The position numbers were made by a program, and so were the translations under genes. Shown in pieces: positions 6,503 through 22,070 of a DNA stretch of 64,000 nt (its first letter is position 1; each line of letters opens with the position of its first letter). The notes under the pieces are model-generated. The model did not search any database. It was not told where the DNA came from and saw only the letters and a program-made list of their open reading frames with translations. This DNA comes from Gammaproteobacteria bacterium (GTDB lineage Bacteria > Pseudomonadota > Gammaproteobacteria > Chromatiales > Chromatiaceae), in the NCBI GenBank assembly GCA_011390365.1, contig JAABSM010000006.1, positions 17,025-81,024 of the forward strand, given 5' to 3'.

Positions 6503-7540
6503 TCAATCAGCACCTTTCGCGAGTTTCGCGGTTTTCGGAGTTTGATTGGCTGTAGCAGACCGGGCGGTCGCGCCGGCGGCCCGCGCCTCCTGCAACTGAC
6601 CGTGACGCCGGGAGACGCTGCGCACCGTCGCCTCGCCCGAGGAGCGAACACGCATGAAGCGCTGAAGCACGTCGAACCAGAAGGGGGCGCCAAGGGAGAT
6701 GGCGAAGGCGCTAATCACGAAACCCACCACCTTGCTCAGCAGCCAGACCAGAAAGGCCAGAAATCCCTCCGCATGGGGCGGCGGCGAGACCCCGGACCAG
6801 CCGATGGGGAGTCCGCGCTGCCCGAGGTTGCCGGTGGCGAAGCGCACCGCCTGATCCAACTCCCGGGCGCTTTGCGCCAGGCGTTCCACGGCATCGTCGG
6901 AGGCCGGCTGCGCGGCCAGCCGCTGTTCGGCGATCAGCTGCATCTTGCCAGCCTGTTCGACCATCCGTGCGCGGGTCACGGGATCGTCGGCGAGGCCCTT
7001 GATGATGGCGATGCTGTCGACGTTGCCGCCCACCACCAGCAGCGCCGCAGCGATCATGGAGATGGTCTGGGTCTTGCGCTTGTACCAGCCGGAGGCCCGT
7101 TCCATGATGGCGTCGTAGTGACCCTCGATCGCCTCGCGCAACTCTGCGCTGCGTTCGCGGGTGTCACGGCGATAGGCCTTGAGGATCCCTTTCAGGCGAC
7201 CATTGGGCAACTTGTCCACCGCCGCGGCGAACTCCCCTACCCCGGCGTGGGCGGTTACCAGGTCTTCCACCACCCGCCCCAGGATCTCGTTGGGCACATG
7301 CGAGGGCCGGCCATTCTTGCCGGAACTGAGGGACTGTACCAGGGGGTGATCGTAAAAGGCGTCCAGAAAGCGGTGGTCGCCCTCCGCCACGCCGCCGAGC
7401 AGCTCCTCAAGCACCTGGCGCAGGCGCTTGCTACGCAGGCTCATCAACGCAGAGACCACTTCGACGATCGCCGTCACCACCAGTGCAACCACTAGGTAGA
7501 CGGTGATCAGACCGATCATGATGTCCAGTGTATCGAGCAT
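6503..7540 (-). CDS. Uncharacterised membrane protein
   Basis: Family not recognised. The 345-residue product has an N-terminal membrane segment (residues about 5-30, IMIGLITVYLVVALVVTAIVEVV), a second hydrophobic stretch near the middle (MIAAALLVVGGN), and a strong one near residues 270-300 (FLAFLVWLLSKVVGFVISAFAI). Soluble regions lie between them, and the tail is basic and alanine-rich. ATG 7540 is chosen because GGAG lies 9 nt upstream; in-frame ATG 7549 and TTG 7555 overlap that ribosome-binding site. It is convergent with the hemerythrin gene. No functional assignment is justified. Confidence 0.7.
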   Translation of the reverse strand: MLDTLDIMIGLITVYLVVALVVTAIVEVVSALMSLRSKRLRQVLEELLGGVAEGDHRFLDAFYDHPLVQSLSSGKNGRPSHVPNEILGRVVEDLVTAHAGVGEFAAAVDKLPNGRLKGILKAYRRDTRERSAELREAIEGHYDAIMERASGWYKRKTQTISMIAAALLVVGGNVDSIAIIKGLADDPVTRARMVEQAGKMQLIAEQRLAAQPASDDAVERLAQSARELDQAVRFATGNLGQRGLPIGWSGVSPPPHAEGFLAFLVWLLSKVVGFVISAFAISLGAPFWFDVLQRFMRVRSSGEATVRSVSRRHGQLQEARAAGATARSATANQTPKTAKLAKGAD

Positions 7541-7591
7541 GGATGTCATCTCCAATTGGGGTTATCCGTCACGAAGCGGAAGCCCCTGCTC

Positions 7592-7676: not shown

Positions 7677-7895
7677 TCGCATGGCCTTCGCGGGCGAAAT
7701 TTTACCAGAAAACCCTCCTGGCTACCCCCCGGCGCTCCACCCCTCTCTGATGTTGGTTACTGGCATTCGGCGATTGAGTTCTTTATGATGGTCGTTAACC
7801 ATTGCCCCCCGCCGGGTTCCTACCCCGCGGTTTCAGCTTGCGAGGTCGGGGCAGGACAAAGGCCTCGCCCCCTAAAGAAACGGCAGGAGCAGACT

Positions 7896-9122
7896 ATGAC
7901 TGACAACAATCCCGACAAAGGTTACGTGGCCATCCTCGGCTGGAGCCTCAACGCCATCGACGCCATCGACCGTTTCGACCGACGCTACATCATCGTCGCC
8001 CCGGAGTGGGCCGAAGAGTACGCCCGCGAAAACGACATCCCGTTCATCTCCTGGAACTTCGAGCGTATCAACGACCGCTCCTTCGAGATCGCCCAGCGCC
8101 TCAAGGACGAAGGGGTGGACGTCGCCGTACCCCTGTTCGAGGAGACGGTGGAGTGGGCCGGGGCGATCAACTCGGTGCTGCTCGACAATCCGCGGCTGAT
8201 GGGCCAGGCGCTGCTGTTTCGCGACAAGGCGCTGATGAAGCGCCGCGCCCAGCTCGGCGGCATTCGCGTGGGCATCTTCGAGGAGGCCCACGACAAGTCC
8301 GACGTGATCCACTTTCTGCGCCGGGTCAACCAGGCCCTGCTCAAGCTCGACGGCGATCCCAACGACCCGATCCACCTCAAGGCCTTCGACAAGGCGGGCT
8401 GCCTCGGCCACCGCGTGGTGCGCACCGCGGACGACGTGGATAACATCCCCGACGAGGAGTTTCCGGCGCTGATGGAGAGCCATCTGGACGGCTGGGAGTT
8501 CGCCGTGGAGGCCTTCATCAAGGATCGCAAGATCCAGTTCCTGAATATCTCCGAGTACGTCACCCTCGGCTACTCGGTGTTCGTCCCCGCCACCCCGGAC
8601 CTTGAAAAGTGGCGACCCCGGGTCACCGAAGAGATCGAAAAGCTGATCGAGACCTTCGACATCGACTTCGGCTTCATCCACCCGGAATACTTCGTTACCA
8701 ATGACGGCAAGATGTACTTCGGCGAGGTGGCCTATCGCCCGCCCGGCTTCCAGGCCTTCGAGCTGATCGAGCGCGCCTACGGCTTCAACGCCTACCAGGC
8801 GATGGTGATGATGTTCGACCCCAAGACCACCCAGCAGGAGATGGACGCCTTCTTTCCCAAACCGGTGGCGGATGCCAAGGGCCATGCCGGCTGTTTCGGG
8901 GTCTACCCCAAGCGCCGCGTGATCAGCGAACTGGCGATCCCCGACGAGACCGAGAACCACCCCTACTTCGAGTTTCACGAACTGCCCTCGCCGATGGAAA
9001 ACAAGGTCCCCAAGCGCACCGCCTTCGGCACCCACTGGGGGTTGCTGCACTTCTTCGGCGACGATCCCTACCAGTTGCGCGACCTGCTGAAGAAGCAGGA
9101 AGAGCTGGATTTCTACGTATAG
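7896..9122 (+). CDS. ATP-grasp domain enzyme
   Basis: A 408-residue cytoplasmic protein of the ATP-grasp superfamily, whose members join a carboxylate (activated as acyl-phosphate) to an amine or thiol. The first 110 residues form a pre-ATP-grasp alpha/beta domain (GYVAILGWSLNAIDAID). The ATP-grasp region follows, with LLFRDKALMKRRAQLGG, SHLDGWEFAVEAFIKD, and the metal/phosphate-binding segment FGFIHPEYFVTNDG then YFGEVAYRPPG. The substrate is unknown. AGGAG ends 6 nt before ATG 7896, which decides the start. The 14-bp gap to the large papain-like protein gene implies cotranscription and a shared pathway. Confidence 0.88.
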   Translation: MTDNNPDKGYVAILGWSLNAIDAIDRFDRRYIIVAPEWAEEYARENDIPFISWNFERINDRSFEIAQRLKDEGVDVAVPLFEETVEWAGAINSVLLDNPRLMGQALLFRDKALMKRRAQLGGIRVGIFEEAHDKSDVIHFLRRVNQALLKLDGDPNDPIHLKAFDKAGCLGHRVVRTADDVDNIPDEEFPALMESHLDGWEFAVEAFIKDRKIQFLNISEYVTLGYSVFVPATPDLEKWRPRVTEEIEKLIETFDIDFGFIHPEYFVTNDGKMYFGEVAYRPPGFQAFELIERAYGFNAYQAMVMMFDPKTTQQEMDAFFPKPVADAKGHAGCFGVYPKRRVISELAIPDETENHPYFEFHELPSPMENKVPKRTAFGTHWGLLHFFGDDPYQLRDLLKKQEELDFYV

Positions 9123-9136
9123 CTTAGGGTTCGCTC

Positions 9137-11125
9137 ATGCATGCCGTAACCGCTCCCGGGGATATCGATCCCCTCGAAGAGAAGCTGACCCACGCCCTGC
9201 ACGCCCTGGAACAGGCGCGCCCCTTCGCCAAGATGCGCCATCAGGGCGCGCTGCTGGATCTATCGGCACGCCTGCTGCAAAGAGAGGGGGGCCTGGAGCG
9301 TTTGCATGCCCTGGCCACGCGCATGGATCGCGCCGGCCTCTTCGCGGGTACCGACTGGGACACCCCCGCGGCGCTGCTGCCGGGGCTGGTGCGCCACACC
9401 CTGGAACAGGGGGCGAAACAGACGGTGGTGCTGGAGATCCTCAGCCAATTGCGCATGCTTGCCCTCGCCAAGGGCGAGGCCGAACACCCCAACCTCACCG
9501 CGCAACAGGCGCGCCACTTTCTGACCCAGGTGCTGGCCCTCAACCTGGCGCGGATCTTCGCCGCCGCCAGCGAGGCGGAGCGGGTGCGGCTGGGCGGCAT
9601 GGCCCCGGTGGTCGACCATCTGTTCCACTTCCTGCTCGATGAGATCGGTTACCAGCAGATCCTCGGCAATCTGATCGAGGAGGTCTGGCGCATCCTCGCC
9701 CAGCGGCCGATCCAGCTCGATCACGTCAAATCGATGATCACCCAGATCTCGATTGTCATGAGTCAGGGCGGCGTCGACCTGGGGGAGAACCGGCTGGGCG
9801 CGGACCGCCTGGTCAGCGCCCTGTTCGGCCCCACCCAGGGCTGTCTCGACGATCCCGGGCTGGCGGCCTACCGGCAACGCCTGGATGCCATGGATCGGAC
9901 CTCGCTGCAACAGGAGGCCTATGGTTTCGCCCGCGCCATGCACGACACCGGCCTGGTCTCCGACTATCATGCGGTGCTGGTACGCTGGTTGCTGGGTAAC
10001 GAGCAAGGCGAACTGCTGCCCGATGCCCTGGGCCTGAGCAGCACCGGCGTCGATGTCCTGCGCAGCTACCAGCAACTGGTGCATCACCTGATCGAGGAGG
10101 CGATCCATCCGCGCACCGCCCAGACCCTGTATGGCCTGGCGATGATGCTGGAACGCTGCATCCTCTACGCGCCCCCCATCGCCCCGGCGCTGTGGCGACA
10201 ACTCGCCCTGCGCGTATCCGCCAACACCGGGACGCTGCTGGGCAACACCCTGGGGCGGGATCTCGCCCCGGAACAACAGCTGCTGGCCGGCGTCATCTCG
10301 CTGCTGGGCCTGCCGCTGGGGGTGGGCCAGGGCAACAACCCCACCTGCCAGGCCGCGCGCGCCCTCTCGATGTGGTCCTACAACGACCCGGACTACCTGC
10401 TCCACATCATCGCCCATGCAGCCCGCTTCGACGGCCTGGTGATGCACTTCGAGGGCGCACCGCTGCACTCGGCGCGGCTGCTCGCCGCCCACCCCAGTCC
10501 GAGCGTGCTGGATACGGACCCCGTCTCGATCCTGCTGGTCCCCCACCTGGACGCGATCTACAACGAAATGGGACGCCTCTGCGCCCATCGCGGCGAAGAC
10601 CCCCACCGCTGGATCAACCCGGAGTTCCACGGCTGGTGGGTCGGCCGCGCCTTCGTCATCGCCGTCGACGTCGCCAGCGGCAAGCTGATCAACTTCGACG
10701 CCTTCCTGCGCCAGTTCTACGCCAGCTACCACCCCTACTACAACGGCAACCAACCCCTCATCCACCCCCAACCCGCCGGCATCGCCGTCACCGACAGCCG
10801 CGCCCAGTTCGTCGGCTGGCACGCCATCACCATCATCCGCGTCGCCCTCGATCAGGAGAATGTCATGCGGGTATACTTCTTCAACCCCAACAACGACAGC
10901 GGCCAGGATTGGGGCAACGGCGTCGTCGTCTCCACCCAGGGCCAAGGCGAACGCTACGGCGAATCCTCCCTCCCCTTCGAGCAACTCGCCTCAAGACTCT
11001 ACATTTTCCACGACGACCCAACGGAAGAGCTGGATGAATTCGACGTGCCCGGCGAGGAGATTCAGCGTGCGCGGGAGCTGGCCGTTAACAGCTGGGCGGT
11101 GAATCGGTTGTCGCCGAAAAGCTGA
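9137..11125 (+). CDS. Large uncharacterised protein with papain-like Cys-His-Asn signature
   Basis: A 662-residue protein of no family I can name. The N-terminal ~390 residues are helical and leucine/glutamine-rich without clear motifs. The C-terminal ~270 residues carry an arrangement typical of papain-fold cysteine peptidases or transferases: Cys404 in QGNNPTCQAARALS at the start of a helix, His562 in FVGWHAITIIRV on a strand, and Asn583 in VYFFNPNNDSG about 20 residues later. This is the same C-H-N order and similar spacing as papain (25/159/175). It has no signal peptide. It lies 14 bp after the ATP-grasp gene, suggesting a ligase/peptidase or ligase/amidotransferase pair. The catalytic assignment is inference from motif order. 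Confidence 0.7.
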   Translation: MHAVTAPGDIDPLEEKLTHALHALEQARPFAKMRHQGALLDLSARLLQREGGLERLHALATRMDRAGLFAGTDWDTPAALLPGLVRHTLEQGAKQTVVLEILSQLRMLALAKGEAEHPNLTAQQARHFLTQVLALNLARIFAAASEAERVRLGGMAPVVDHLFHFLLDEIGYQQILGNLIEEVWRILAQRPIQLDHVKSMITQISIVMSQGGVDLGENRLGADRLVSALFGPTQGCLDDPGLAAYRQRLDAMDRTSLQQEAYGFARAMHDTGLVSDYHAVLVRWLLGNEQGELLPDALGLSSTGVDVLRSYQQLVHHLIEEAIHPRTAQTLYGLAMMLERCILYAPPIAPALWRQLALRVSANTGTLLGNTLGRDLAPEQQLLAGVISLLGLPLGVGQGNNPTCQAARALSMWSYNDPDYLLHIIAHAARFDGLVMHFEGAPLHSARLLAAHPSPSVLDTDPVSILLVPHLDAIYNEMGRLCAHRGEDPHRWINPEFHGWWVGRAFVIAVDVASGKLINFDAFLRQFYASYHPYYNGNQPLIHPQPAGIAVTDSRAQFVGWHAITIIRVALDQENVMRVYFFNPNNDSGQDWGNGVVVSTQGQGERYGESSLPFEQLASRLYIFHDDPTEELDEFDVPGEEIQRARELAVNSWAVNRLSPKS

Positions 11126-11889: not shown

Positions 11890-11924
11890 CCCTTCACCCT
11901 TCACCCTTCACCCTTCACCCTTCA
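11890..11924. repeat. Five tandem CCCTTCA heptamers
   Basis: Five exact copies of a 7-bp unit end at the TGA stop codon of the DUF3095 gene (TCA on the plus strand at 11922-11924). The array extends only into the 3' untranslated side, so copy-number change would not alter the protein. Confidence 0.9.
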
Positions 11925-13103
11925 CCCCTCCGCCATCTGCCCCTTCATCTCCTTGGCCGCCAACGCATACCCGCCATTGGCGGCATCGAGAAAGTGAACG
12001 TGATCGTTGACATAGTCCGAGACCACGCAGGTGATCAACGCGGTGGGGGCGGCGTGGATACCGTATACGATACGCCCCTCCCTGCGCCACCCTTCCAGCG
12101 CCTCGCGCAGTCGACCCCGTTGCTCGGGGGCGCCGGCGATGACCATGCGCAGCACCTCGTCGAGCTTGCGATAGTCGCTGTTGGCGATGAGGCGGGCCTT
12201 GTAGCCGCCCCAGTCGGTCCGATCGGTGCGCACACCGCGTTTCATCATGTAATCGCCCAGGGAGACCAGCACGCGGGTCTTGAGCATCCACCAGATGCGT
12301 TGCGGCATGTTGCCGAAGGCGGTGCGGATCATCGCCTCGGCGGCGACGCCGCGCATGGACTTGGCCAGCCTCAATCCCTCTTCCCGTAACGGGTGGTACT
12401 CCGCCTCGTCGCCATAGATCTCGCCGATTTTGGCGAGGATTTCGTCATGGAGTCGGTCCCGCGCCGCTTCGTCCGGTTCGGTCACCTGTACCAGCAGGGC
12501 GATGGTTTCGCCGTGGGGGCTGGGGATCTCGTTCCAGCGGCACTCGAAGCCTTCGAAACAGTTTTCCTGCGCGCCTTCCTTTTCATCGATCAGCCAGGGA
12601 TTGTCTGGGGCGGGCTCCTTCACCAGCTTCTCCGCCTGGCTGAGACCGCCGCCAAGGAACATCGCCTGCCCGAACCAGGGATGGGGCTGGTACTTGGCCA
12701 CCAGCACCCGAAAGCCGGCCCGCTCCACTTGCGAGACCGGCACTAGACCGGCCCGCAGCTCCAGACCGAACTCCGCCCGCGACAAGGCCCGCGCCGCACG
12801 CATCGCCTCCTTGGCCTGCTCCAGGGCGCTCGGCGGTAGGCAGGCAGTAGCGCCGTCGCCGCCGAAGACATAGGGGATCTCCAGCGGACGCACCTTGTTG
12901 AGCAGGGCGACGATGGAGGCGACGCCGATGGCGTTGACCTGGCGATACTTGCCGTCCTGAATCGCCGCCGTCGACCCCTTCACGTCACTGATCGCCACCC
13001 ACCAGTCGCTGGGCAAGGGGCGATAGCGGTCCTGATGGGCGACATCGGCGAAGGATGGCAAGCCTGGCAGGTCGTGGTAGAAGTTGTCGCTTTGGTTGTT
13101 CAT
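11922..13103 (-). CDS. DUF3095 protein, nucleotide-cyclase-like fold
   Basis: A 393-residue cytoplasmic protein of the DUF3095 family. Near residue 35 is VAISDVKGSTAAI, a D-x-x-GST motif as found in class III cyclase catalytic cores. It is followed by VFGGDGATACLPP, a GGD-type turn at the position of the second metal-binding strand. These suggest a palm-domain nucleotidyl cyclase fold, as proposed for the family; no product has been established to my knowledge. The C-terminal half contains a helical segment and a second region (GRIVYGIHAAPTALITCVV). It sits between the toxin-antitoxin remnant and the transglutaminase gene, in the same direction as both. Confidence 0.85.
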   Translation of the reverse strand: MNNQSDNFYHDLPGLPSFADVAHQDRYRPLPSDWWVAISDVKGSTAAIQDGKYRQVNAIGVASIVALLNKVRPLEIPYVFGGDGATACLPPSALEQAKEAMRAARALSRAEFGLELRAGLVPVSQVERAGFRVLVAKYQPHPWFGQAMFLGGGLSQAEKLVKEPAPDNPWLIDEKEGAQENCFEGFECRWNEIPSPHGETIALLVQVTEPDEAARDRLHDEILAKIGEIYGDEAEYHPLREEGLRLAKSMRGVAAEAMIRTAFGNMPQRIWWMLKTRVLVSLGDYMMKRGVRTDRTDWGGYKARLIANSDYRKLDEVLRMVIAGAPEQRGRLREALEGWRREGRIVYGIHAAPTALITCVVSDYVNDHVHFLDAANGGYALAAKEMKGQMAEG

Positions 13104-13396: not shown

Positions 13397-16300
13397 TCAA
13401 CCACTCCGCCGCAGATCCAGGGTATAGGGATACTCGGGATTGCGCTCCGCCGGTCCGGGTTCGCCGATCTCCGCCTTGCCGGTCGCTTCCGTATAGCCAA
13501 AGCTCCAGAAGCGGGAGATGCGCCGGGCTTCGGCCTCGTAGGCGTTGACCGGGGCGGTGTCGTAGCTGAGGCCGCCGGGGTGGGCTACGTGGTAGGTGCA
13601 GCCGGCGATGGCGCGTTGGTTCCATTGGTCGACCAGCTCCAGGCGCAGCGGGGCGTGACTGGGGATGGTGGGGTGGAGGGCGGAGGGGGGTTGCCAGGCG
13701 CGAAAACGGATGCCGGCGACGTATTCGCCGTGGGTGCCGGTGGGTTTGAGGGGGACGCGGCGACCGTTGCAGGTGAGCAGGTGGCGGGAGTCGGTGAGGC
13801 CGGTGAGCTTGACTTGCAGGCGTTCCACCGAGGAGTCGACGTAGCGGGCGGTGCCCATGCCGCTGACCTCTTCGCCCAGCACATGCCAGGGCTCGATGGC
13901 CTGACGCAGTTCGAGGGTGATGTCGCGGCTCTCCAGGGTGCCGTAGTGGGGGAAGCGGAATTCGTGGAAGGGGGCGAGCCAGTCCTGGGCGAAGGGGATG
14001 CCGTGATCCGTCAGTTCGTCGACGACGTCCTCCAGGTCCCGTCGCACGTAGTGGGGCAACAACCAGCGGTCGTGGAGCTCGGTGCCCCAGCGCACCAGCG
14101 GCTTCTTGTAGGGCTGGTCCCAGAAGCGGGTGATGAGGGCGCGCAGCAGCAGGTTCTGCACCAGTGACATGCGGGCGTGGGGCGGCATCTCGAAGGCGCG
14201 TAGTTCGAGGATGCCGAGGCGACCGCTGGCGGAGTCGGGGGAGTAGAGCTTGTCGATACAGAACTCGGCGCGGTGGGTGTTGCCGGTGATGTCCACCAGC
14301 AGGTTGCGCAGTAGCCGGTCCACCAGCCAGGGGTTGGGGGTCTCGCCGTCGGGCATCAGCCGGAAGGCGGTCTCCAGTTCATACAGGATCTCGTCGCGCC
14401 CCTCGTCGACGCGCGGGGCCTGGCTGGTGGGGCCGATGAACAGGCCGGAGAAGAGGTAGGAGAGCCCGGGGTGGTGCTGCCAGTAGGTGACCAGGCTGCG
14501 CAGCAGGTCGGGGCGACGCAGGATGGGGCTGTCGGCGGGGGTGGGGCCGCCGATGGTGATGTGGTTGCCGCCGCCGGTGCCGGTGTGGCGACCGTCGATG
14601 AGGAACTTCTCGGTGCCCAGCCGCGCCAGACGGGCCTCTTGGTAGAGGGCCTGGGTGTTGTTGACCAGCTCCTGCCAGGAGTGGGCGGGGTGGATGTTGA
14701 CCTCGATCACGCCCGGATCAGGGGTCACCAGCAGCCGGTTGAGGCGCGGATCATGGGGGGGCTCGTAGCCCTCCAGCAGCACCGGGGTTTGCAGCTCGGC
14801 GGCCACCGCCTCCACCGCGGCGACCAGATCCAGGTAGTGCTCCAGGTGGGTGAGGGGCGGCAGAAAGACCCGCAGCCGGCCCTCCCGCGCCTCCAGGCAG
14901 AGGGCGGTACGCACCACCGCGCCCATCTCCCCTCGCTGGTCGGCCCCCTCTTCGTCCGCGAAGCGCTGATCGCGGATCTTCTGGGGCCGCGGGGCGGTGT
15001 CGGCGACGAAGTGGTCAAAGTGACGCGCCACCTCACCCACCGAGTCGCCCAGTTGCGGCCGGGGTTCGAACAGGTCGGGGGGCTGGGGCTGGCGCTTTTC
15101 GCTATCCTTTTCCCAGTGCAGGGCATCCAGCGGCAGGCGGTAGCCCATCGGCGAATCCCCCGGCAGCAGGTAGAGTCGCTCGCGCCGCAAGCGCCAGGGG
15201 CCGGTGACCCAGCCGTCGTCGCGGTAGCCCCATACCAGCGGCAGGACGTAACCGACGATCTTCTCCAGGCCCTGTTCGAAGACCCGGCGCAGACGCTCCC
15301 GCTCCAGTTTATCGGTAAGCTTGCTGTCGAGGGGGTCGACGTTGTCCGGCAGCATCCCTTCTCGCCACAGGTAGTAGAAGACATCCTCGTAGCCGGCGCG
15401 CAATGTGTCGTCCTGAACCGCCAGGCGACGGGCCAGGGCGCGACCGAAGGCGAGCGCCTGCGCGGCGTCGGCGCCATAGTCCCGCGCCTCATCGGCGACC
15501 CAGCGGTCGTCGCGCCACACCGGCTTGCCGTCGCGCCGCCAGAAGCAGCCGTAGGCCCAGCGCGGCAGTTGTTCGCCGGGATACCACTTGCCCTGGCCAT
15601 AGTGACGCACCGCACCGGGGGCGAAGCGGTTCTTGACCCGCGCCAGCAGATCGAAGGCCCGTTCCTGTTTGTGCCTGCCCAGCGCCTGGGTGTTCCATTG
15701 CGGATCATCCATGTCGTCGATGGAGACGAAGGTGGGTTCGCCGCCCATGGTGAGGCGCACGTCCCGCTCCTTGAGTTTGCCGTCGAGTTCCCGCCCCAGT
15801 TGCTGGATTGCGGCCCACTGGTCGTCGGAATAGGGCTTGGTAACCCGCGGGTCTTCGTGAATGCGCCGGACCTGGTTGGCGAAATCGAACGCCACCTCGA
15901 CCCTTTCACCCACATAGCCGCCGGTGACCGGCGCGGCGCTGACCGGATCGGGGGTGCCGGCCAGGGGAATGTGGCCTTCGCCGGCGAACAGCCCGGAGGT
16001 GGGGTCGAGGCCGATCCAGCCCGCGCCGGGTACGTAGACCTCGGCCCAGGCATGGAGGTCGGTGAAGTCCTCCTCCGGGCCGCTAGGGCCGTCGAGGGCC
16101 TTCTCATCCGCGGTCAACTGCACCAGATAGCCGGAGACGAAGCGTGCCGCCAGTCCCAGGTGGCGGAGGATCTGCACCAGCAACCAGGCGGTGTCGCGGC
16201 AGGATCCGGAGCGTTTCTCCAGGGTTTCGTCGCAGCCCTGAATGCCGGGTTCCATGCGGATGGTGTAGCGTATCTTGCGCCACAGTTCCTGATTGAGGTG

Positions 16301-16738
16301 AACCAGGAAGTCGACGATCTTCTGCTCGCCGCGATCGATGGTGGTGAGCAGTGCCATCAGGCGATCGCCAAATTCGGTGACTTCCAGGTAGGGACTCAGC
16401 TCCTTGCGAAGTTGCTTGTCGTAGGCGAAGGGGAAGTTGTCGGCATAGGCCTCGACGAAGAAATCGAAGGGGTTGATCACCGTGGTCTCGGCGATCACCG
16501 TCACCTTCACCGACATCTCCCGGGTCGGCTCCAGAAACACCACCCGTGCCAGCCAATTGCCGAAGGGGTCCTGCTGCCAGTTGATGAAGTGCTTGGCCGG
16601 CTGGATGTCCAGGGCGTAGTGGAGGATCGGCGTACGCGAATGCACCGCCGGGCGCAGGCGGAAGATATGGGGGGTAAGCTCCACCGATCGGGGATAGCGG
16701 TAGGAGGTATGATGATCGATGGCGACGCGGATGGTCAT
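13397..16738 (-). CDS. Transglutaminase-like / DUF2126 fusion protein
   Basis: A 1113-residue two-part protein. Residues 1-~290 are a bacterial transglutaminase N-terminal domain plus transglutaminase core. The catalytic triad is visible as Cys180 (RSGSCRDTAWLL), His229 (DLHAWAEVYVPG) and Asp245 (WIGLDPTSGLF). Residues ~300-1113 match the DUF2126/COG4196 region commonly fused to this core, with GEPTFVSIDDMDDPQWN and GGGNHITIGGPTP. This architecture is a known companion of Anbu peptidase, circularly permuted ATP-grasp and alpha-E proteins, all found just upstream. It is probably cytoplasmic, as no signal peptide is seen. The likely reaction is amide hydrolysis or transfer, substrate unknown. 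Confidence 0.92.
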   Translation of the reverse strand: MTIRVAIDHHTSYRYPRSVELTPHIFRLRPAVHSRTPILHYALDIQPAKHFINWQQDPFGNWLARVVFLEPTREMSVKVTVIAETTVINPFDFFVEAYADNFPFAYDKQLRKELSPYLEVTEFGDRLMALLTTIDRGEQKIVDFLVHLNQELWRKIRYTIRMEPGIQGCDETLEKRSGSCRDTAWLLVQILRHLGLAARFVSGYLVQLTADEKALDGPSGPEEDFTDLHAWAEVYVPGAGWIGLDPTSGLFAGEGHIPLAGTPDPVSAAPVTGGYVGERVEVAFDFANQVRRIHEDPRVTKPYSDDQWAAIQQLGRELDGKLKERDVRLTMGGEPTFVSIDDMDDPQWNTQALGRHKQERAFDLLARVKNRFAPGAVRHYGQGKWYPGEQLPRWAYGCFWRRDGKPVWRDDRWVADEARDYGADAAQALAFGRALARRLAVQDDTLRAGYEDVFYYLWREGMLPDNVDPLDSKLTDKLERERLRRVFEQGLEKIVGYVLPLVWGYRDDGWVTGPWRLRRERLYLLPGDSPMGYRLPLDALHWEKDSEKRQPQPPDLFEPRPQLGDSVGEVARHFDHFVADTAPRPQKIRDQRFADEEGADQRGEMGAVVRTALCLEAREGRLRVFLPPLTHLEHYLDLVAAVEAVAAELQTPVLLEGYEPPHDPRLNRLLVTPDPGVIEVNIHPAHSWQELVNNTQALYQEARLARLGTEKFLIDGRHTGTGGGNHITIGGPTPADSPILRRPDLLRSLVTYWQHHPGLSYLFSGLFIGPTSQAPRVDEGRDEILYELETAFRLMPDGETPNPWLVDRLLRNLLVDITGNTHRAEFCIDKLYSPDSASGRLGILELRAFEMPPHARMSLVQNLLLRALITRFWDQPYKKPLVRWGTELHDRWLLPHYVRRDLEDVVDELTDHGIPFAQDWLAPFHEFRFPHYGTLESRDITLELRQAIEPWHVLGEEVSGMGTARYVDSSVERLQVKLTGLTDSRHLLTCNGRRVPLKPTGTHGEYVAGIRFRAWQPPSALHPTIPSHAPLRLELVDQWNQRAIAGCTYHVAHPGGLSYDTAPVNAYEAEARRISRFWSFGYTEATGKAEIGEPGPAERNPEYPYTLDLRRSG

Positions 16739-16783
16739 GGTTCCTTATTTCTCCGGAACGGGGGGCTATCAGAGTGAGGAAAT

Positions 16784-16979
16784 GGACAGGATTAACAGGA
16801 TTTCTCAGGATTTACATGATTTATAACGGCGAACCTCGTCAGGTACGTTAAACATGGCGACTCAACTCAGGCGATTGACTGCGGCATAGATAACCTCGGG
16901 CCGGCTAAAGCCTCGACCTCCGACTACGTTTTCACAACAAAAAATCCTGTCAATCCTGAGAAATCCTGTCTATGAATTT
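16784..16979. repeat. Inverted pair of dispersed AGGATT repeats
   Basis: The gap between the transglutaminase and Anbu genes holds two inverted copies (about 16784-16822 and 16941-16979) of a repeat built from ACAGGATT units. Between them is the segment CCGGCTAAAGCCTC-ACCTCC at 16901-16921. Both motifs recur in the 27921-28416 gap, so they belong to genome-wide intergenic repeat families. Confidence 0.75.
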
Positions 16980-16995
16980 TTCTTGAACCGATCCC

Positions 16996-17847
16996 TCACT
17001 CCAACTGCCGACTCCAGACATGCTCGGAGAGTTCCTGGGGCTGGGAGGCGGCGGCTTCGGACTCCTTGGGCGGTTGCGCGACACCGGTTTCGCGCGGCGC
17101 TGGCGCCGCGACCGCGCCTTCCCAGGGGAAACGCGGCAGACCGCCAAAGGCCTGGCGCAGGCCTTCGTTCCATTGCTGCTTGATGGCGTTGTAGAGGCTG
17201 TCCTCTTCGCTCAGCTTCATGTAATTGGAGACCCGGAACTCGCCCTTGCGCAGGATGCACAGTTCCACCGGTGGCCCGACGGTGATGTTGGAGCGGATGG
17301 TGGAGTCGATGGAGACCAGCGCGGCGCGGGAGGCGTCCTCCAGGGTGGTGACCGGGGTGATCACGCGGTCGAGGATGGGTTTGCCATATTTGGTCTCGCC
17401 GATCTGCAGGAACGGGTTGTCGTCGGACGGACTGATACAGTTACCCTGGGCGTAGACCAGATAGATGTCCGGATCCTGGCCACTGATCTCGCCACCGATG
17501 ATGAAATAGGACTCGCCGTTGATACCGCTCTTCTGCAACGCCGATTCATGACGTCCCTGTACCACCTGACTGGTCTGGCCGAGGTAGCTGGCGGCGTTGT
17601 AGAGGGAATCCGCGGTACGCAGACTGAAGACCGCGTTGGGGTCTTCGAGATCTCGTCGCAACTGCTGAATCACCCCCTGGCTGGTGGAGAGATTGCCGGA
17701 GGTGATGATGACGAAGGCGCGGCCTGAGTCGACCTCGAAGCGAAACATCTTGCTGTAGGTGTTGACATAGTCCACCCCTGCGTTGGTGCGGGAGTCGGAG
17801 GCGAACACCAGCCCGTCGTTCACCTTGATACTGAGGCAATAGGTCAT
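16996..17847 (-). CDS. Anbu (ancestral beta subunit) proteasome-like peptidase
   Basis: A 283-residue N-terminal-nucleophile hydrolase of the Anbu/bacterial-proteasome-homologue family. After removal of the initiator Met the chain begins with Thr1 (MTYCLSIKV). Asp17 (FASDSRTNAG) and Lys32 (NTYSKMFRF) complete the proteasome-type active site. The family core runs to about residue 245; a 35-residue Ala/Pro/Glu-rich tail (APAPRETGVAQPP) follows. ATG 17847 is chosen because it puts the nucleophile Thr next to Met; an in-frame extension to 17907 would bury it. The transglutaminase gene lies downstream on the same strand, and the ATP-grasp/alpha-E pair is divergent upstream, the known Anbu neighbourhood. 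Confidence 0.92.
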   Translation of the reverse strand: MTYCLSIKVNDGLVFASDSRTNAGVDYVNTYSKMFRFEVDSGRAFVIITSGNLSTSQGVIQQLRRDLEDPNAVFSLRTADSLYNAASYLGQTSQVVQGRHESALQKSGINGESYFIIGGEISGQDPDIYLVYAQGNCISPSDDNPFLQIGETKYGKPILDRVITPVTTLEDASRAALVSIDSTIRSNITVGPPVELCILRKGEFRVSNYMKLSEEDSLYNAIKQQWNEGLRQAFGGLPRFPWEGAVAAPAPRETGVAQPPKESEAAASQPQELSEHVWSRQLE

Positions 17848-17962
17848 GGGATGCGTCTTCAAGCCAAGTGGAAGCGGGTCGCCTCCGAAACAGAATCCGT
17901 CACGCACTGGGACGGCGCCGGGAAATCATGTTCGCACATTTTATCCCGCAAGTCTCTCATTG

Positions 17963-17974
17963 CGAAACGTTTCG
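17963..17974. promoter_or_regulatory. Perfect palindrome between divergent Anbu and ATP-grasp genes
   Basis: CGAAACGTTTCG is a perfect 12-bp palindrome lying near the middle of the 278-bp divergent promoter region. It could be an operator coordinating both halves of the Anbu module. No promoter boxes can be assigned with confidence. Confidence 0.35.
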
Positions 17975-18125
17975 ATTCAGGCTATTTTGCGCTCTCGGAA
18001 GGTGCGTAATTCACCCCGACGCACCAGCGGAAGGCGCGGCTGACGGCATGCCTTGCACATTTCGCTTGCGACCGTTTGCATTGTGACGCCTGGCCCCGAT
18101 TTTGCTAGACGATCACGAACATGAT

Positions 18126-19589
18126 ATGGCGGACCCCCCTGTGGCTATCGACTGGAAAGAGTACACCCACCACGACTTCTTCGATGAACTGGTCGCCAGC
18201 GGCGCACCCCGACGCGCCGCCGAAAAGGTCTGCGGCTATCTGTCCGGGCTGGAGGATGGCGAGCTGGAGGACCTGCGCAACGCGGCGGAGCTGGCGATCA
18301 AGGCGATGGGCATCACCTTCACCGTCTACACCGAGGCCGAAGGCTCCATCGATCGCGCCTGGCCCTTCGACCTGATCCCGCGCATCATCGAGCGTAACGA
18401 GTGGCGGCGCATCGAGGCGGGCCTCAAGCAGCGGGTACGCGCCCTCAACCTGTTTATCGACGACATCTACCACGATCAGAAGATCGTCAAGGATGGGGTC
18501 TTTCCCGGCGAACTGCTCGCCGATTCGGTAAATTTTCGGCCCGAGTGCGTCGGCATCGATCCGCCGTTTGGGGTCTGGGCGCACATCTGCGGCTCGGACC
18601 TGGTGCGCGACGCCGACGGCACGGTTTACGTGCTGGAAGACAACCTGCGCGTCCCCTCCGGCGTCTCCTACATGCTGGAAAACCGCATGGTGATGAAGCG
18701 GGTCGCGCCGGAGCTGTTCGAGGAGAACACCATCCTGCCGGTGGACGCCTACCCTACCCAGCTCTATGAGACGCTGGCCGCCCTGTCGCCACGGCCCGGC
18801 GACTTCCCCGAGGTGGTGGTGCTGACACCCGGCATCTACAACTCCGCCTATTTCGAGCACGCCTATCTGGCCCAGCAGATGGGGGCGGAACTGGTGGAGG
18901 GGAGCGATCTGGTCGTGGGTGAGGACGATTGCGTCTACATGCGCACCATTTACGGGTTGTCCCGGGTCGACGTGATCTACCGTCGCATCGACGACCTGTT
19001 CATGGACCCGGAGGTGTTCCACCCGGACTCGGCGCTCGGCGTGCCCGGTCTGATGCGCGCCTGGAAGGCGGGCAATGTAGCCCTGGCCAACGCCCCTGGC
19101 GCGGGAGTGGCGGACGACAAGGTGGTCTACGCCTATGTGCCGGATGCCATCAAGTACTACCTGGATGAGGATCCGATCCTGCCCAACGTCCCCACCTATC
19201 GCTGCCTGTATGACCAGGAGCGAGAGCATGTGCTGACCAACCTTGACCAGCTGGTGGTCAAACCCGCGAACGAATCCGGCGGCTACGGCATGCTCATCGG
19301 CCCCCAGGCGGAAGAGGCGGAGCTGGCCAAGTTCGCGGAACTGATCAAACAGGACCCGCGCAACTACATCGCCCAGCCGATGCTCAAGCTCTCCACCGTG
19401 CCGACCCTGACGGATCACCACGCCGCGGCCCGCCACGTCGACCTGCGCCCCTTCATTCTTTCGAGCAAGCACGTCCACGTCACCACCGGCGGCCTCACCC
19501 GGGTCGCGCTACGCCCTGGGTCCACCGTGGTCAACAGCTCCCAGGGGGGAGGCAGCAAGGATACCTGGATCGTCGATCTCGACGACTGA
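18126..19589 (+). CDS. Circularly permuted ATP-grasp protein (COG2308 type)
   Basis: A 487-residue enzyme of the circularly permuted ATP-grasp family (DUF404/DUF407). Typical segments are FNLFIDDIYHDQ-like LNLFIDDIYHDQKIV, the ICGSDLVRDADGTVYVLEDN strand pair, RVPSGVSYMLENR, VVLTPGIYNSAYFEHAYLA, and YVPDAIKYYLDEDPIL with the C-terminal ATP-binding VVKPANESGGYGM and YIAQPM. Members are thought to form amide bonds on a peptide or protein partner. ATG 18126 is preferred; an in-frame TTG at 18102 is possible. It precedes the alpha-E gene by 22 bp, forming a two-gene operon divergent from Anbu. Confidence 0.92.
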   Translation: MADPPVAIDWKEYTHHDFFDELVASGAPRRAAEKVCGYLSGLEDGELEDLRNAAELAIKAMGITFTVYTEAEGSIDRAWPFDLIPRIIERNEWRRIEAGLKQRVRALNLFIDDIYHDQKIVKDGVFPGELLADSVNFRPECVGIDPPFGVWAHICGSDLVRDADGTVYVLEDNLRVPSGVSYMLENRMVMKRVAPELFEENTILPVDAYPTQLYETLAALSPRPGDFPEVVVLTPGIYNSAYFEHAYLAQQMGAELVEGSDLVVGEDDCVYMRTIYGLSRVDVIYRRIDDLFMDPEVFHPDSALGVPGLMRAWKAGNVALANAPGAGVADDKVVYAYVPDAIKYYLDEDPILPNVPTYRCLYDQEREHVLTNLDQLVVKPANESGGYGMLIGPQAEEAELAKFAELIKQDPRNYIAQPMLKLSTVPTLTDHHAAARHVDLRPFILSSKHVHVTTGGLTRVALRPGSTVVNSSQGGGSKDTWIVDLDD

Positions 19590-19611
19590 TCGATAGCGAG
19601 GATATTGCCCC

Positions 19612-20568
19612 ATGCTTTCACGCGTCGCCGAACACATCTACTGGCTGGCCCGCTATGCCGAACGGGCGGAGAACACCGCGCGCCTGATCAACGTCAACAC
19701 CCATCTGCAACTGGACCTGCCCAAGCACCTGCGTCCCGGCTGGAAACCCTTGATCACCATCACCGGCTGCGAGGATCCCTTCTTGCGACGCGCGATGGAG
19801 GCCAATGAGAAGAACGTGGTGCGCTTCCTGATCGGCGACTTCGAGAACCCCAGCTCCATCATCCAATCCCTCAAGTGGGCGCGAGAGAATGGCCGCACGG
19901 TGCGCGATTTCTTCCCGCGCGACGGCTGGGAGCAGATCAACAACCTCTACCGCATCGCCTCCGCCGAGATCTACCTGGGCATCTCGCCTCGCGGTCGCTA
20001 CAACTACCTCAAGCAGGTCATCCTCGGCGTGCAGGCCCTCTCCGGGATGCTCTCCGGTACCATGAGCCACGACGAAGGCTACACCTTCCTGCTGCTGGGG
20101 CGCTATCTGGAACGGGCCGACATGACCACCCGCATCGTCGACGTGCTCTCCACCCACCTGGAAGAGCAGAGCGGCGACATCGAGTACTACGAAGGGGCGT
20201 TGTGGATGAACCTGCTCGAATCCCTCAGCGGTTACCAGATGTACCGGCGGGTGATGCAGCAGGCGCCGGACTGGGATCCGGTGATCAGCTTCCTTTTTCG
20301 TAATCGGGAATTCCCCCGCTCCTTCCGCTACTGCCTGGGCGAGCTGGCTGGGGCGGTGGCGCCGCTGCGCAACAACGAACGGGTGAAGGAGCGGATTGAG
20401 CGCCTCGAAGAGCTGATCGGCGAATTCGATCCGGATCGGGTTAGTGGAAGCGACCTGCACCAGCTCATCGACGACCTGCAACGCATGCTGGGGGAGATTC
20501 ACAACGAGATCGGCATCGCCTGGTTCAACTATCCGTTGCCCGAAGAGTCCCAGCGCCAGGCCAGTTGA
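19612..20568 (+). CDS. Alpha-E domain protein (DUF403)
   Basis: A 318-residue all-helical protein of the alpha-E family. The N-terminus LSRVAEHIYWLARYAERAENTARLI is diagnostic; later GMLSGTMSHDEGYTFLLLGRYLERADMTTRI repeats the helical E-rich pattern. Alpha-E proteins are nearly always encoded with circularly permuted ATP-grasp and transglutaminase or Anbu partners and are thought to assist peptide synthesis or modification; no catalytic activity is established. A GAGGA ribosome-binding site lies before ATG 19612. Confidence 0.92.
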   Translation: MLSRVAEHIYWLARYAERAENTARLINVNTHLQLDLPKHLRPGWKPLITITGCEDPFLRRAMEANEKNVVRFLIGDFENPSSIIQSLKWARENGRTVRDFFPRDGWEQINNLYRIASAEIYLGISPRGRYNYLKQVILGVQALSGMLSGTMSHDEGYTFLLLGRYLERADMTTRIVDVLSTHLEEQSGDIEYYEGALWMNLLESLSGYQMYRRVMQQAPDWDPVISFLFRNREFPRSFRYCLGELAGAVAPLRNNERVKERIERLEELIGEFDPDRVSGSDLHQLIDDLQRMLGEIHNEIGIAWFNYPLPEESQRQAS

Positions 20569-20624
20569 ACACCAGCGCCCCGGGGCGGGACAGACGCGTC
20601 CATTCGTGGTAGTTTTCCCGTCCC

Positions 20625-22070
20625 ATGCCACACGTCAAACATCCCGCCTACCTTGCAGGGCTGGTCCTGCTGATGCTCGCCGCCGCGCGCATCCTGCTGG
20701 TCCAGACCCACGATCCACTGTTCGCCTACGCCAACAACTACGATCAGGTGCGCACCATGTCGGCGCTGGGACTCTCCCCCGCCGATGAGCGCTACCGCTT
20801 CGGGGAAGGTACCCACGCCCACCCGCTGCGTTATTTCGATATTGATCGTGAAGAGAAATGGATCTACCTCTCCAGCGCCATCGCGCTGGATTACCTGCTG
20901 CTCCGGGGAAGAGATCGACTGAGCGACAACCCCGCTGAACCCCGGCGAGTCGACATTCGTGTCAAGGGCGCCTTTTTCGCGGCCCTGTGGATCCTGATCC
21001 TGCTGATCTACCATTTTCGGCTGGCGCGATCCCGGCAGGGCGTCGCGCTGCTCTATGCCTTGGTCGGCCTGCTCATCGCCGATCCCTTCTACAGCCTCTA
21101 TCTCAACACCCTCTACATGGAGCCCGCGACATTCATCGGCCTGCTGTGGTTCGCCTCATCCGTGCTACTGGCGATCATCGAACAACGCATTCCCCGCCGA
21201 CGGATAGCGGCATGGGGCCTGCTGCTGCTTGCCATCGCCCTCTCCCGCAATCAGTATCAATATCTTTTCCTGGCGCTGATCCCGATCCTGGCGGGGGTCG
21301 CGCCGCCCTGGCGCAAGCGCTTCGGCCTTGCGTTGGTTATCGGCCTGGTCGCGACCATCGGCACCCAGCGCATCTTCTACCTGACCAACCCCGACGCCAC
21401 CAACACCCTGAACGACATCAAGAACACGAACACGATCAATACTTTTTTTGGCGCGGTACTGCCGGCTCTTTCCGATCCCGCGCGGACACTGGACACCTTC
21501 GGCCTAGAGCCTGAATGTATCAGGTTCAGCGGGGATAACTGGTACATCGGCGACCTCCAGGCGATCTTCGAGCAGTGCCCCGCCATCCTATCCCTGTCCC
21601 TCGCCGACATGGGGTTGATGAGCGTTCAGGATCCCGCCGCAATCGCAACCATGATCCGAAATGCAGCCCTGTATTCCCAAGAGCTGTACCATCGCGCCCT
21701 CGGTCAGGTAGCGCACGAGTCCAAGATCTTCATCCTTGAGGCGGGCGGTGTTCCTTACCTCGGTATCGCGGATATTATCGCGAACATGGATTCCCGGCGG
21801 TGGCTCGGTCTCGTGTTCTTCACCCTCTTCTCCCCTTGGCTGGCGGCCCTGCTGGCCTGGACGCGCGGCGCTACTGAACAGGCCGCATGGCCGACCTTTC
21901 TTGGGGCGATGCTGGGATACTCCTTCTTTTCGTCATTGTATGGCGATGGCTACATTGACTTTCCCCGTCACGCCTTTCTCTTCTACGGCCTGGCTCTCGC
22001 CTGGTTCGCCACCTTCGCCTACGGATTGCTCACGACCCTAAGCCCCCGCGAGCAGTTGCGTCGCCGCTAA
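20625..22070 (+). CDS. Polytopic membrane protein, GT-C-like topology
   Basis: A 481-residue integral membrane protein with about 9-10 hydrophobic segments, beginning YLAGLVLLMLAAARILLV and ending LFYGLALAWFATFAYGLL. After the first segment comes a large extracytoplasmic loop containing YANNYDQVR, the position where GT-C glycosyltransferases carry an acidic catalytic residue. A second loop of about 110 residues (from DPARTLDTFGLEPE) precedes the last segments. No family motif is certain; a lipid-linked-sugar glycosyltransferase is possible. It starts 56 bp after the alpha-E gene, so it could be the last member of that transcript, though no functional link is known. Confidence 0.6.
   Translation: MPHVKHPAYLAGLVLLMLAAARILLVQTHDPLFAYANNYDQVRTMSALGLSPADERYRFGEGTHAHPLRYFDIDREEKWIYLSSAIALDYLLLRGRDRLSDNPAEPRRVDIRVKGAFFAALWILILLIYHFRLARSRQGVALLYALVGLLIADPFYSLYLNTLYMEPATFIGLLWFASSVLLAIIEQRIPRRRIAAWGLLLLAIALSRNQYQYLFLALIPILAGVAPPWRKRFGLALVIGLVATIGTQRIFYLTNPDATNTLNDIKNTNTINTFFGAVLPALSDPARTLDTFGLEPECIRFSGDNWYIGDLQAIFEQCPAILSLSLADMGLMSVQDPAAIATMIRNAALYSQELYHRALGQVAHESKIFILEAGGVPYLGIADIIANMDSRRWLGLVFFTLFSPWLAALLAWTRGATEQAAWPTFLGAMLGYSFFSSLYGDGYIDFPRHAFLFYGLALAWFATFAYGLLTTLSPREQLRRR

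Follow-up and report, generated by a model that had tools for sequence, protein, structure and literature searches.

What might two tightly spaced genes of a gammaproteobacterium do together, when one of them encodes an ATP-grasp ligase-like protein (A) and the other a large protein (B) that belongs to no recognised family? The genes lie in a stretch of 64,000 nucleotides from a member of the Chromatiaceae (contig JAABSM010000006.1, positions 17,025 to 81,024), which we refer to as the window and in which coordinates are given unless a locus is named. An earlier note, made from the letters of the window alone, had singled out this pair. Gene A occupies 7896..9122 on the plus strand and specifies 408 residues, although its longest open reading frame (ORF) begins upstream of this start, at an ATG at 7785. 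A spacer of 14 bases (9123..9136) separates it from gene B (9137..11125, plus strand), which specifies 662 residues. The positions and the tight spacing are as the note had given them, and so is the lack of a recognised family: both genes stay below the curated cut-offs of Pfam and NCBIfam. The results presented below establish that A and B are a real, conserved and co-occurring pair, and we propose that they are probably an undescribed pair of enzymes acting on the same amide bond.

A and B are conserved as a pair

A pattern scan of genome contigs confirmed at least 496 relatives of B, and the best 80 loci, those most similar to the window, were kept. In 77 of these 80, A precedes B in the same orientation and at a distance of at most 505 bases, which bears out the expectation that homologues of B would neighbour ATP-grasp genes. 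The two genes are divergent in one locus and unlinked in two, and both genomes with unlinked loci carry A elsewhere. When the gap is measured from the start of the longest ORF of B, its median in the 77 linked loci is 37 bases, and A lies within 100 bases of that start in 70 of them.

The two genes also occur together when whole genomes are compared. Among 398 Pseudomonadota genomes, with the presence of A defined at E≤1e-60, A and full-length B are found together in 11, including that of the window, and neither is found in the remaining 387; according to the listed genome handles, the A and B searches drew the same genomes. A weak match to B in a further genome (G199) was dismissed as due to chance, there being no B-like gene, by eye, among its ORFs of at least 250 amino acids. 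Among 56 genomes, comprising that of the window and those of its relatives, three carry B and all three carry A, on a different contig in one case (G003). Both genes are present in two of 246 Actinomycetota genomes, one of which was the centre of the search and was picked because it has the pair, and in no genome of this set is either gene present alone. Finally, in the 73 of 81 rows with a full-length A, the pairwise distances of A and of B are correlated at r = 0.905, a value that none of 1000 permutations attained and that is inflated through shared ancestry.

The pair spans gamma- and alphaproteobacteria, Desulfobacterota and Actinomycetota, and across this spread the identity to the window copies is about 71-90% for A and 48-65% for B. 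The genera that bear it include Salinivibrio, Halorhodospira, Roseinatronobacter, Nocardia, Mycolicibacter and Saccharopolyspora, in addition to the 31 Halomonadaceae and 9 Marinobacteraceae among the 80 loci. In a tree of B the Actinomycetota fall at two positions and one gammaproteobacterium groups with the Desulfobacterota; these placements suggest, and do not prove, transfer between phyla. B was found in no phage record and in one plasmid record, a Halomonas replicon of 1.83 Mb, and of the ten plasmid records that contain A, only this same replicon does so at more than 60% identity.

A genome may contain up to three copies of A or of B, some of them without an adjoining partner. Extra A genes are present at L120:8780-10159, L121:9743-11122 and L122:9822-11129, in genomes that also possess an A/B pair; no B is found in the sequenced surroundings of the first and the third, and the second sits at the end of its contig. 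Conversely, B lacks an adjoining A at L036:9278-11245, L037:9024-11024, L038:8917-10869 and L022:8998-11007, with A elsewhere in the genome. The B copies of L036 to L038 are about 48-51% identical to that of the window.

Protein A weakly resembles the ATP-grasp amino acid ligases

What kind of enzyme is A? To Pfam and NCBIfam it is known only as a generic ATP-grasp protein that falls under the curated cut-offs. The NCBIfam model PRK07206 is matched by all 15 members of the family that were scanned (best E 1.7e-7), with the window copy below the cut-off. When used as a profile, A weakly matches two L-amino acid ligases, 4wd3 (E 0.003) and 3vot (E 0.004), over about 116 positions. The RimK family is absent from the matches of A in the Pfam and NCBIfam scans. 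Fourteen homologues are 72-80% identical to the window copy, and in all 15 sequences E264, E277 and R281 are invariant. These residues lie in a stretch (residues 262-284; 8679..8747, plus strand) that resembles the metal-binding motif of ATP-grasp enzymes.

Protein B carries a conserved papain-like motif

The earlier note had pointed to Cys404, His562 and Asn583 of B, which stand at these positions and in papain order, and had proposed conservation of this triad as a check. The three residues, together with Gln398, are unchanged in every one of 19 sequences, comprising the window copy and 18 whole-genome homologues that a similarity search recovered at 48-58% identity. In the 80 kept loci, Gln398, Cys404, Trp561, His562, Asn583, Asn585 and Asp587 are present without exception; the patterns used for the scan included Gln398 and Asn583, so that these two are partly ascertained, and excluded Cys404 and His562. 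The two sets may overlap in a few genomes. Judged from these alignments, the conservation of the triad exceeds chance. Gln398 precedes Cys404 by six residues, and a glutamine at this distance ahead of the cysteine is the oxyanion-hole spacing of papain. We accordingly regard Gln398 (codon 10328..10330) as the predicted oxyanion-hole residue and Cys404 (10346..10348) as the predicted nucleophile, with His562 at 10820..10822 and Asn583 at 10883..10885, all on the plus strand.

An AlphaFold2 model of the whole protein, built with 52 sequences, has a mean pLDDT (predicted local distance difference test score) of 83. In this model residues 10-391 are predicted as helices, and residues 1-391 (9137..10309, plus strand) constitute an all-helical region, itself without a family match. 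There follow a helix at 405-416 and strands at 558-571 and 577-582. Cys404 directly precedes the helix, His562 lies within the first of these strands and Asn583 comes directly after the second. A cysteine that heads a helix, with histidine and asparagine on or beside later strands, is the arrangement expected of a papain-like enzyme.

Profile and structure searches are less definite. In Pfam nothing matches B at E≤1, and its single NCBIfam match (E 0.52) is to a short, unrelated model. A Pfam scan of 52 members of the B family gave scattered weak matches to 12 families, the best at E 0.011, none of them named as papain-like. With the full-length model, Foldseek returned nothing at E≤0.001, and papain-like chains were scattered amid helical-repeat proteins. 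With a model of the predicted papain-like domain (residues 376-654; 10262..11098, plus strand), all of ranks 1 to 21 are papain-like. They include staphopains, calpains and cathepsin-like enzymes of plants and insects, as well as interpain, the Parabacteroides dinase and the phytochelatin synthase Alr0975. The best of these matches has an E of 0.029 and none reaches E≤0.001. The note had proposed a comparison of this part of B with papain-fold families as a check, and its outcome, with no significant match, is suggestive only. Because of the Foldseek ranks together with the Gln-Cys-His-Asn motif, the evidence that B carries a papain-like domain appears good but not decisive. The papain-like group gained 21 unclassified families in 2023 (PMC10318531).

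It might be argued that B is a pseudoenzyme or scaffold whose triad has a structural role, with A the sole enzyme. The weakness of the fold match and the low confidence of the models at Cys404 are in keeping with this idea. It is opposed by the invariance of the cysteine, the histidine, the asparagine and the preceding glutamine in both sequence sets, across three phyla, and we consider it highly improbable.

The neighbourhood of the pair

A further module lies close to the pair in the window. A transglutaminase/DUF2126 protein, a proteasome-like protein that we take to be of the Anbu type, a circularly permuted ATP-grasp protein and an alpha-E protein are encoded at 13397-20568; the region 13397-22070 also encodes a protein of 481 amino acids without a Pfam match. 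The earlier note had placed the transglutaminase gene 2.3 kb from the pair and suggested that the two might be related systems or parts of one larger one. The distance is right, and a DUF3095 gene (11922-13103) sits in between. On the other side of the pair, on the minus strand at 6503-7555, is a gene for a protein of 350 amino acids, which by eye contains hydrophobic stretches and which reaches the cut-off of no family. When 98 other loci of A or B, mostly with flanks of 8-10 kb and some with shorter ones, were searched by tblastn (E≤1e-8), they gave no match to the Anbu-module proteins, the DUF3095 protein or this last protein. Further, although the module, like the pair, includes an ATP-grasp protein, and has a transglutaminase besides, neither the B domain nor A has profile similarity to its transglutaminase and circularly permuted ATP-grasp protein. 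The proposed link was therefore rejected; since the module has no match in the 98 loci, its arrangement with the pair in the window looks incidental.

Nor is a fixed third gene found beside the pair among the best 40 neighbour clusters of the 80 loci, where the families common to many loci reflect synteny within Halomonas or Marinobacter. The PADLOC models gave no match at E≤0.01 for A, B or the HDAC-like protein C described below, and an anti-phage defence system was set aside on this ground.

These surveys bear on the possibility that the pair serves to mature a natural product of small peptide type, either a dipeptide or a ribosomally synthesised and post-translationally modified peptide (RiPP). 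ATP-grasp ligases and papain-like peptidases are both known from RiPP and dipeptide pathways, and the patchy spread across three phyla would suit such a product. A scan of 46 loci, covering the DNA up to 1.2 kb from the pair, yielded no small ORF that was convincingly common to several lineages; the scan was noisy, with many short and probably chance matches in G+C-rich loci (L049, L119) that were discounted by eye, and precursors may lie elsewhere. In addition, genes for transporters or immunity proteins are not repeatedly seen next to the pair except within single lineages. We consider a peptide product very unlikely. In two Rhodobacteraceae bins (L060 and L077) a stretch of 80 amino acids, 86% identical between them, was noticed about 80-330 bases downstream of B.

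Might the product be an amide osmolyte or some similar protectant, which would make it a special case of our preferred reading? The Halomonadaceae and Marinobacteraceae that account for 40 of the 80 loci, and the presence of the pair in Salinivibrio, Halorhodospira and Roseinatronobacter, bring salt stress to mind. In a Halomonas locus (L061:10030-14652) the pair is followed by genes for an FtsJ-like/S4 methyltransferase and a mechanosensitive channel of the MscS type. A pooled scan of 94 proteins, chosen among 145 neighbour genes from 39 mostly non-Halomonadaceae loci, found MscS domains in three (among the best 25 of 107 families). The skew toward genera of salt habitats is suggestive only: the 80 loci are those most like the window, so that their composition is no test, and Nocardia, Mycolicibacter and Saccharopolyspora carry the pair as well. 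Moreover, A is present in just 56 of 98 genomes of a family that contains Halomonas relatives, and the linkage to the channel is mostly synteny within a single family. A role in compatible-solute metabolism seems unlikely.

An HDAC-like protein whose presence follows that of A

The same pooled scan showed that an HDAC-family protein, here called C, recurs beside the pair (4 of the 94 proteins), and this was the origin of the following comparison. The gene for C is about 3.1 kb or less from A or B in L040 (5069-6193), L045 (10112-11218), L030 (7990-9108), L059 and L043 (48% identity), and in L122 (14210-15310) it is equally near an A that has no adjoining B. Some HDAC protein (E≤1e-40) is found in 164 of the 398 Pseudomonadota genomes. 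The subfamily of C stands apart from these, with identities of 52-77% and scores of 367-634 bits as compared with 255 for the next best, and it is present in 8 of the 11 genomes with A and B and in none of the 387 others. This difference is significant with P = 1e-14 (Fisher's test), uncorrected for kinship and based on a score gap picked post hoc.

A second comparison, with the threshold for C (E≤1e-130) fixed ahead of the run, was made in the family f30, which, to judge from contig positions that coincide with those of known A/B genomes (for example that of L117), presumably holds the Halomonadaceae. Of its 98 genomes, 56 possess A and 32 possess C. All 32 of the latter are among the 56 with A, as against none of the 42 without it (P = 8e-11); when genera are counted in place of genomes the proportions are 11 of 17 and 0 of 7 (P = 0.006). 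The presence of C thus depends on that of A in this pattern. At E≤1e-85, C is found in 23 of 53 genomes with A and B, or 23 of the 45 that are not actinobacterial; the genome of L059 is here counted as lacking C, although it carries a C gene cut by the end of a contig. This subfamily is a better-supported partner of the pair than the Anbu module, and it was invisible to the earlier note because the genome of the window lacks it.

Of 38 C loci, two of which repeat others, 37 keep the zinc ligands and the tyrosine of HDAC enzymes, and in the remaining locus the gene is cut by the end of the contig. The nearest solved relatives of C are HDAC6 and the bacterial HDAH-type deacylases. In 4 of 39 C loci, again including two repeats and from four lineages, a GNAT acetyltransferase gene ends no more than 52 bases upstream of C on the same strand (L142:9870-10412, and likewise L162, L163 and L164, whose copies are 53-66% identical to that of L142). 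The GNAT count refers to these 39 loci.

Discussion

In the mechanism that we infer, A would activate a carboxylate with ATP and join it to an amine, as the ATP-grasp amino-acid ligases do. B would be a papain-type thiol enzyme with the triad Cys404-His562-Asn583 and the oxyanion-hole residue Gln398, attacking either the amide made by A or one downstream of it. The outcome might be hydrolysis, in which case the two proteins would make and break the same bond in a cycle, or transfer of the acyl group onto another amine. The helical part of B would probably grip the substrate or a partner. Both proteins look cytoplasmic from their maximum 19-residue mean hydropathy (0.92 for A, 1.44 for B). Where C is present, sometimes in an operon with GNAT, it may add a step of acylation or deacylation on the same compound. 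That A and B form a single functional unit of this kind, with A forming an amide and B hydrolysing or transferring this amide or a downstream one, we hold to be about evenly balanced between right and wrong.

Several observations weigh against this proposal. Four of the 77 linked loci (L047, L060, L069, L100) have A read as two or three pieces, and in two others (L065, L071) the contig start shortens it. In some genomes A or B lacks its partner alongside, so that the pairing is not strict for each gene, and the correlation of distances owes part of its height to common descent. The match of A to the Pfam family ATP-grasp_4 (E 5.5e-4) falls under the family cut-off, with 20 as against 27 bits. 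In the full-length model of B, residues 399-403, immediately ahead of the proposed nucleophile, have a pLDDT below 50. In the domain-only model (81 sequences) the pLDDT is 74 and the surroundings of Cys404 are again below 50; the TM-scores obtained with it in Foldseek do not exceed 0.34 among the matches listed, which are the best 50 of 257. Finally, the subfamily of C is absent from the genome of the window, from its two relatives and from all 8 Actinomycetota searched, and C is for this reason not essential.

Is the substrate a small molecule or a protein? It may be that A adds an amino acid or a short tag to a protein and that B, with its helical scaffold, removes or processes it. RimK, an ATP-grasp ligase with a protease devoted to what it has ligated, provides a precedent. 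In the RimABK system of ribosome modification a ligase and a protease serve one modification, and the protease is termed retropepsin-like (PMC11957791), whereas B is papain-like. A is without a RimK match in the Pfam and NCBIfam scans. The large helical region of B and the kinship of C with HDAC6- and HDAH-type deacetylases would fit a protein target. Arguing the other way are the closest, if weak, relatives of A, which are small-molecule L-amino acid ligases, its lack of a RimK family match and the lack of a fixed third gene beside the pair that could encode a target or a tag. Modification of a protein in this manner seems doubtful. The helical part of B and the analogy with RimK plus a protease favour a protein target, and the relatives of A and the lack of a target gene slightly favour a small metabolite; we consider a small amide metabolite somewhat likelier.

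Several known systems resemble our preferred reading, that of a ligase and a thiol enzyme acting on one amide. Glutathionylspermidine synthetase/amidase combines, in one chain, ATP-grasp amide synthesis with a papain-related CHAP thiol amidase. The likeness is in the pairing of the two chemistries. In contrast, the CHAP domain is fused there, whereas here A and B are separate genes, Pfam shows no such match, and B, the putative thiol enzyme, has an extended helical part. Among solved structures, the L-amino acid ligases 3vot (BL00235) and 4wd3 come closest to A in profile comparison, yet they are remote from it next to the 72-80% identity of A members to the window copy, and we know of no papain-like partner for them. 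Staphopain, calpain and Alr0975 share with B the Gln-Cys-His-Asn order and are among the top structure matches of its domain; B differs in that its scores are not significant, that it has no family match and that its domain is extended by some 390 helical residues. A literature search returned no title or opening of an abstract that describes the A/B pair, a result limited by the wording of the search, and an earlier description may exist.

Taken further, A and B, with or without C and GNAT, could be an undescribed system of reversible amide conjugation. In it the ligase would write the amide, B, as a new family of the papain fold carrying a helical scaffold, would erase or transfer it, HDAC and GNAT would switch the acylation of the same amine, and the module would move between phyla as a unit. 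We offer this fuller scheme as a tentative possibility.

That a ligase and a thiol enzyme co-occur so tightly points to one compound or one modification as yet undescribed. A chemical clue, namely an amine that can be acylated, comes from the deacetylase that accompanies the pair in some genomes. The pair is spread over distant bacteria, yet a curated Pfam or NCBIfam model captures neither gene. Since A is present in some members and absent from others within one bacterial family, the question posed at the outset is directly testable by metabolomics, through comparison of natural strains that possess A with those that lack it.

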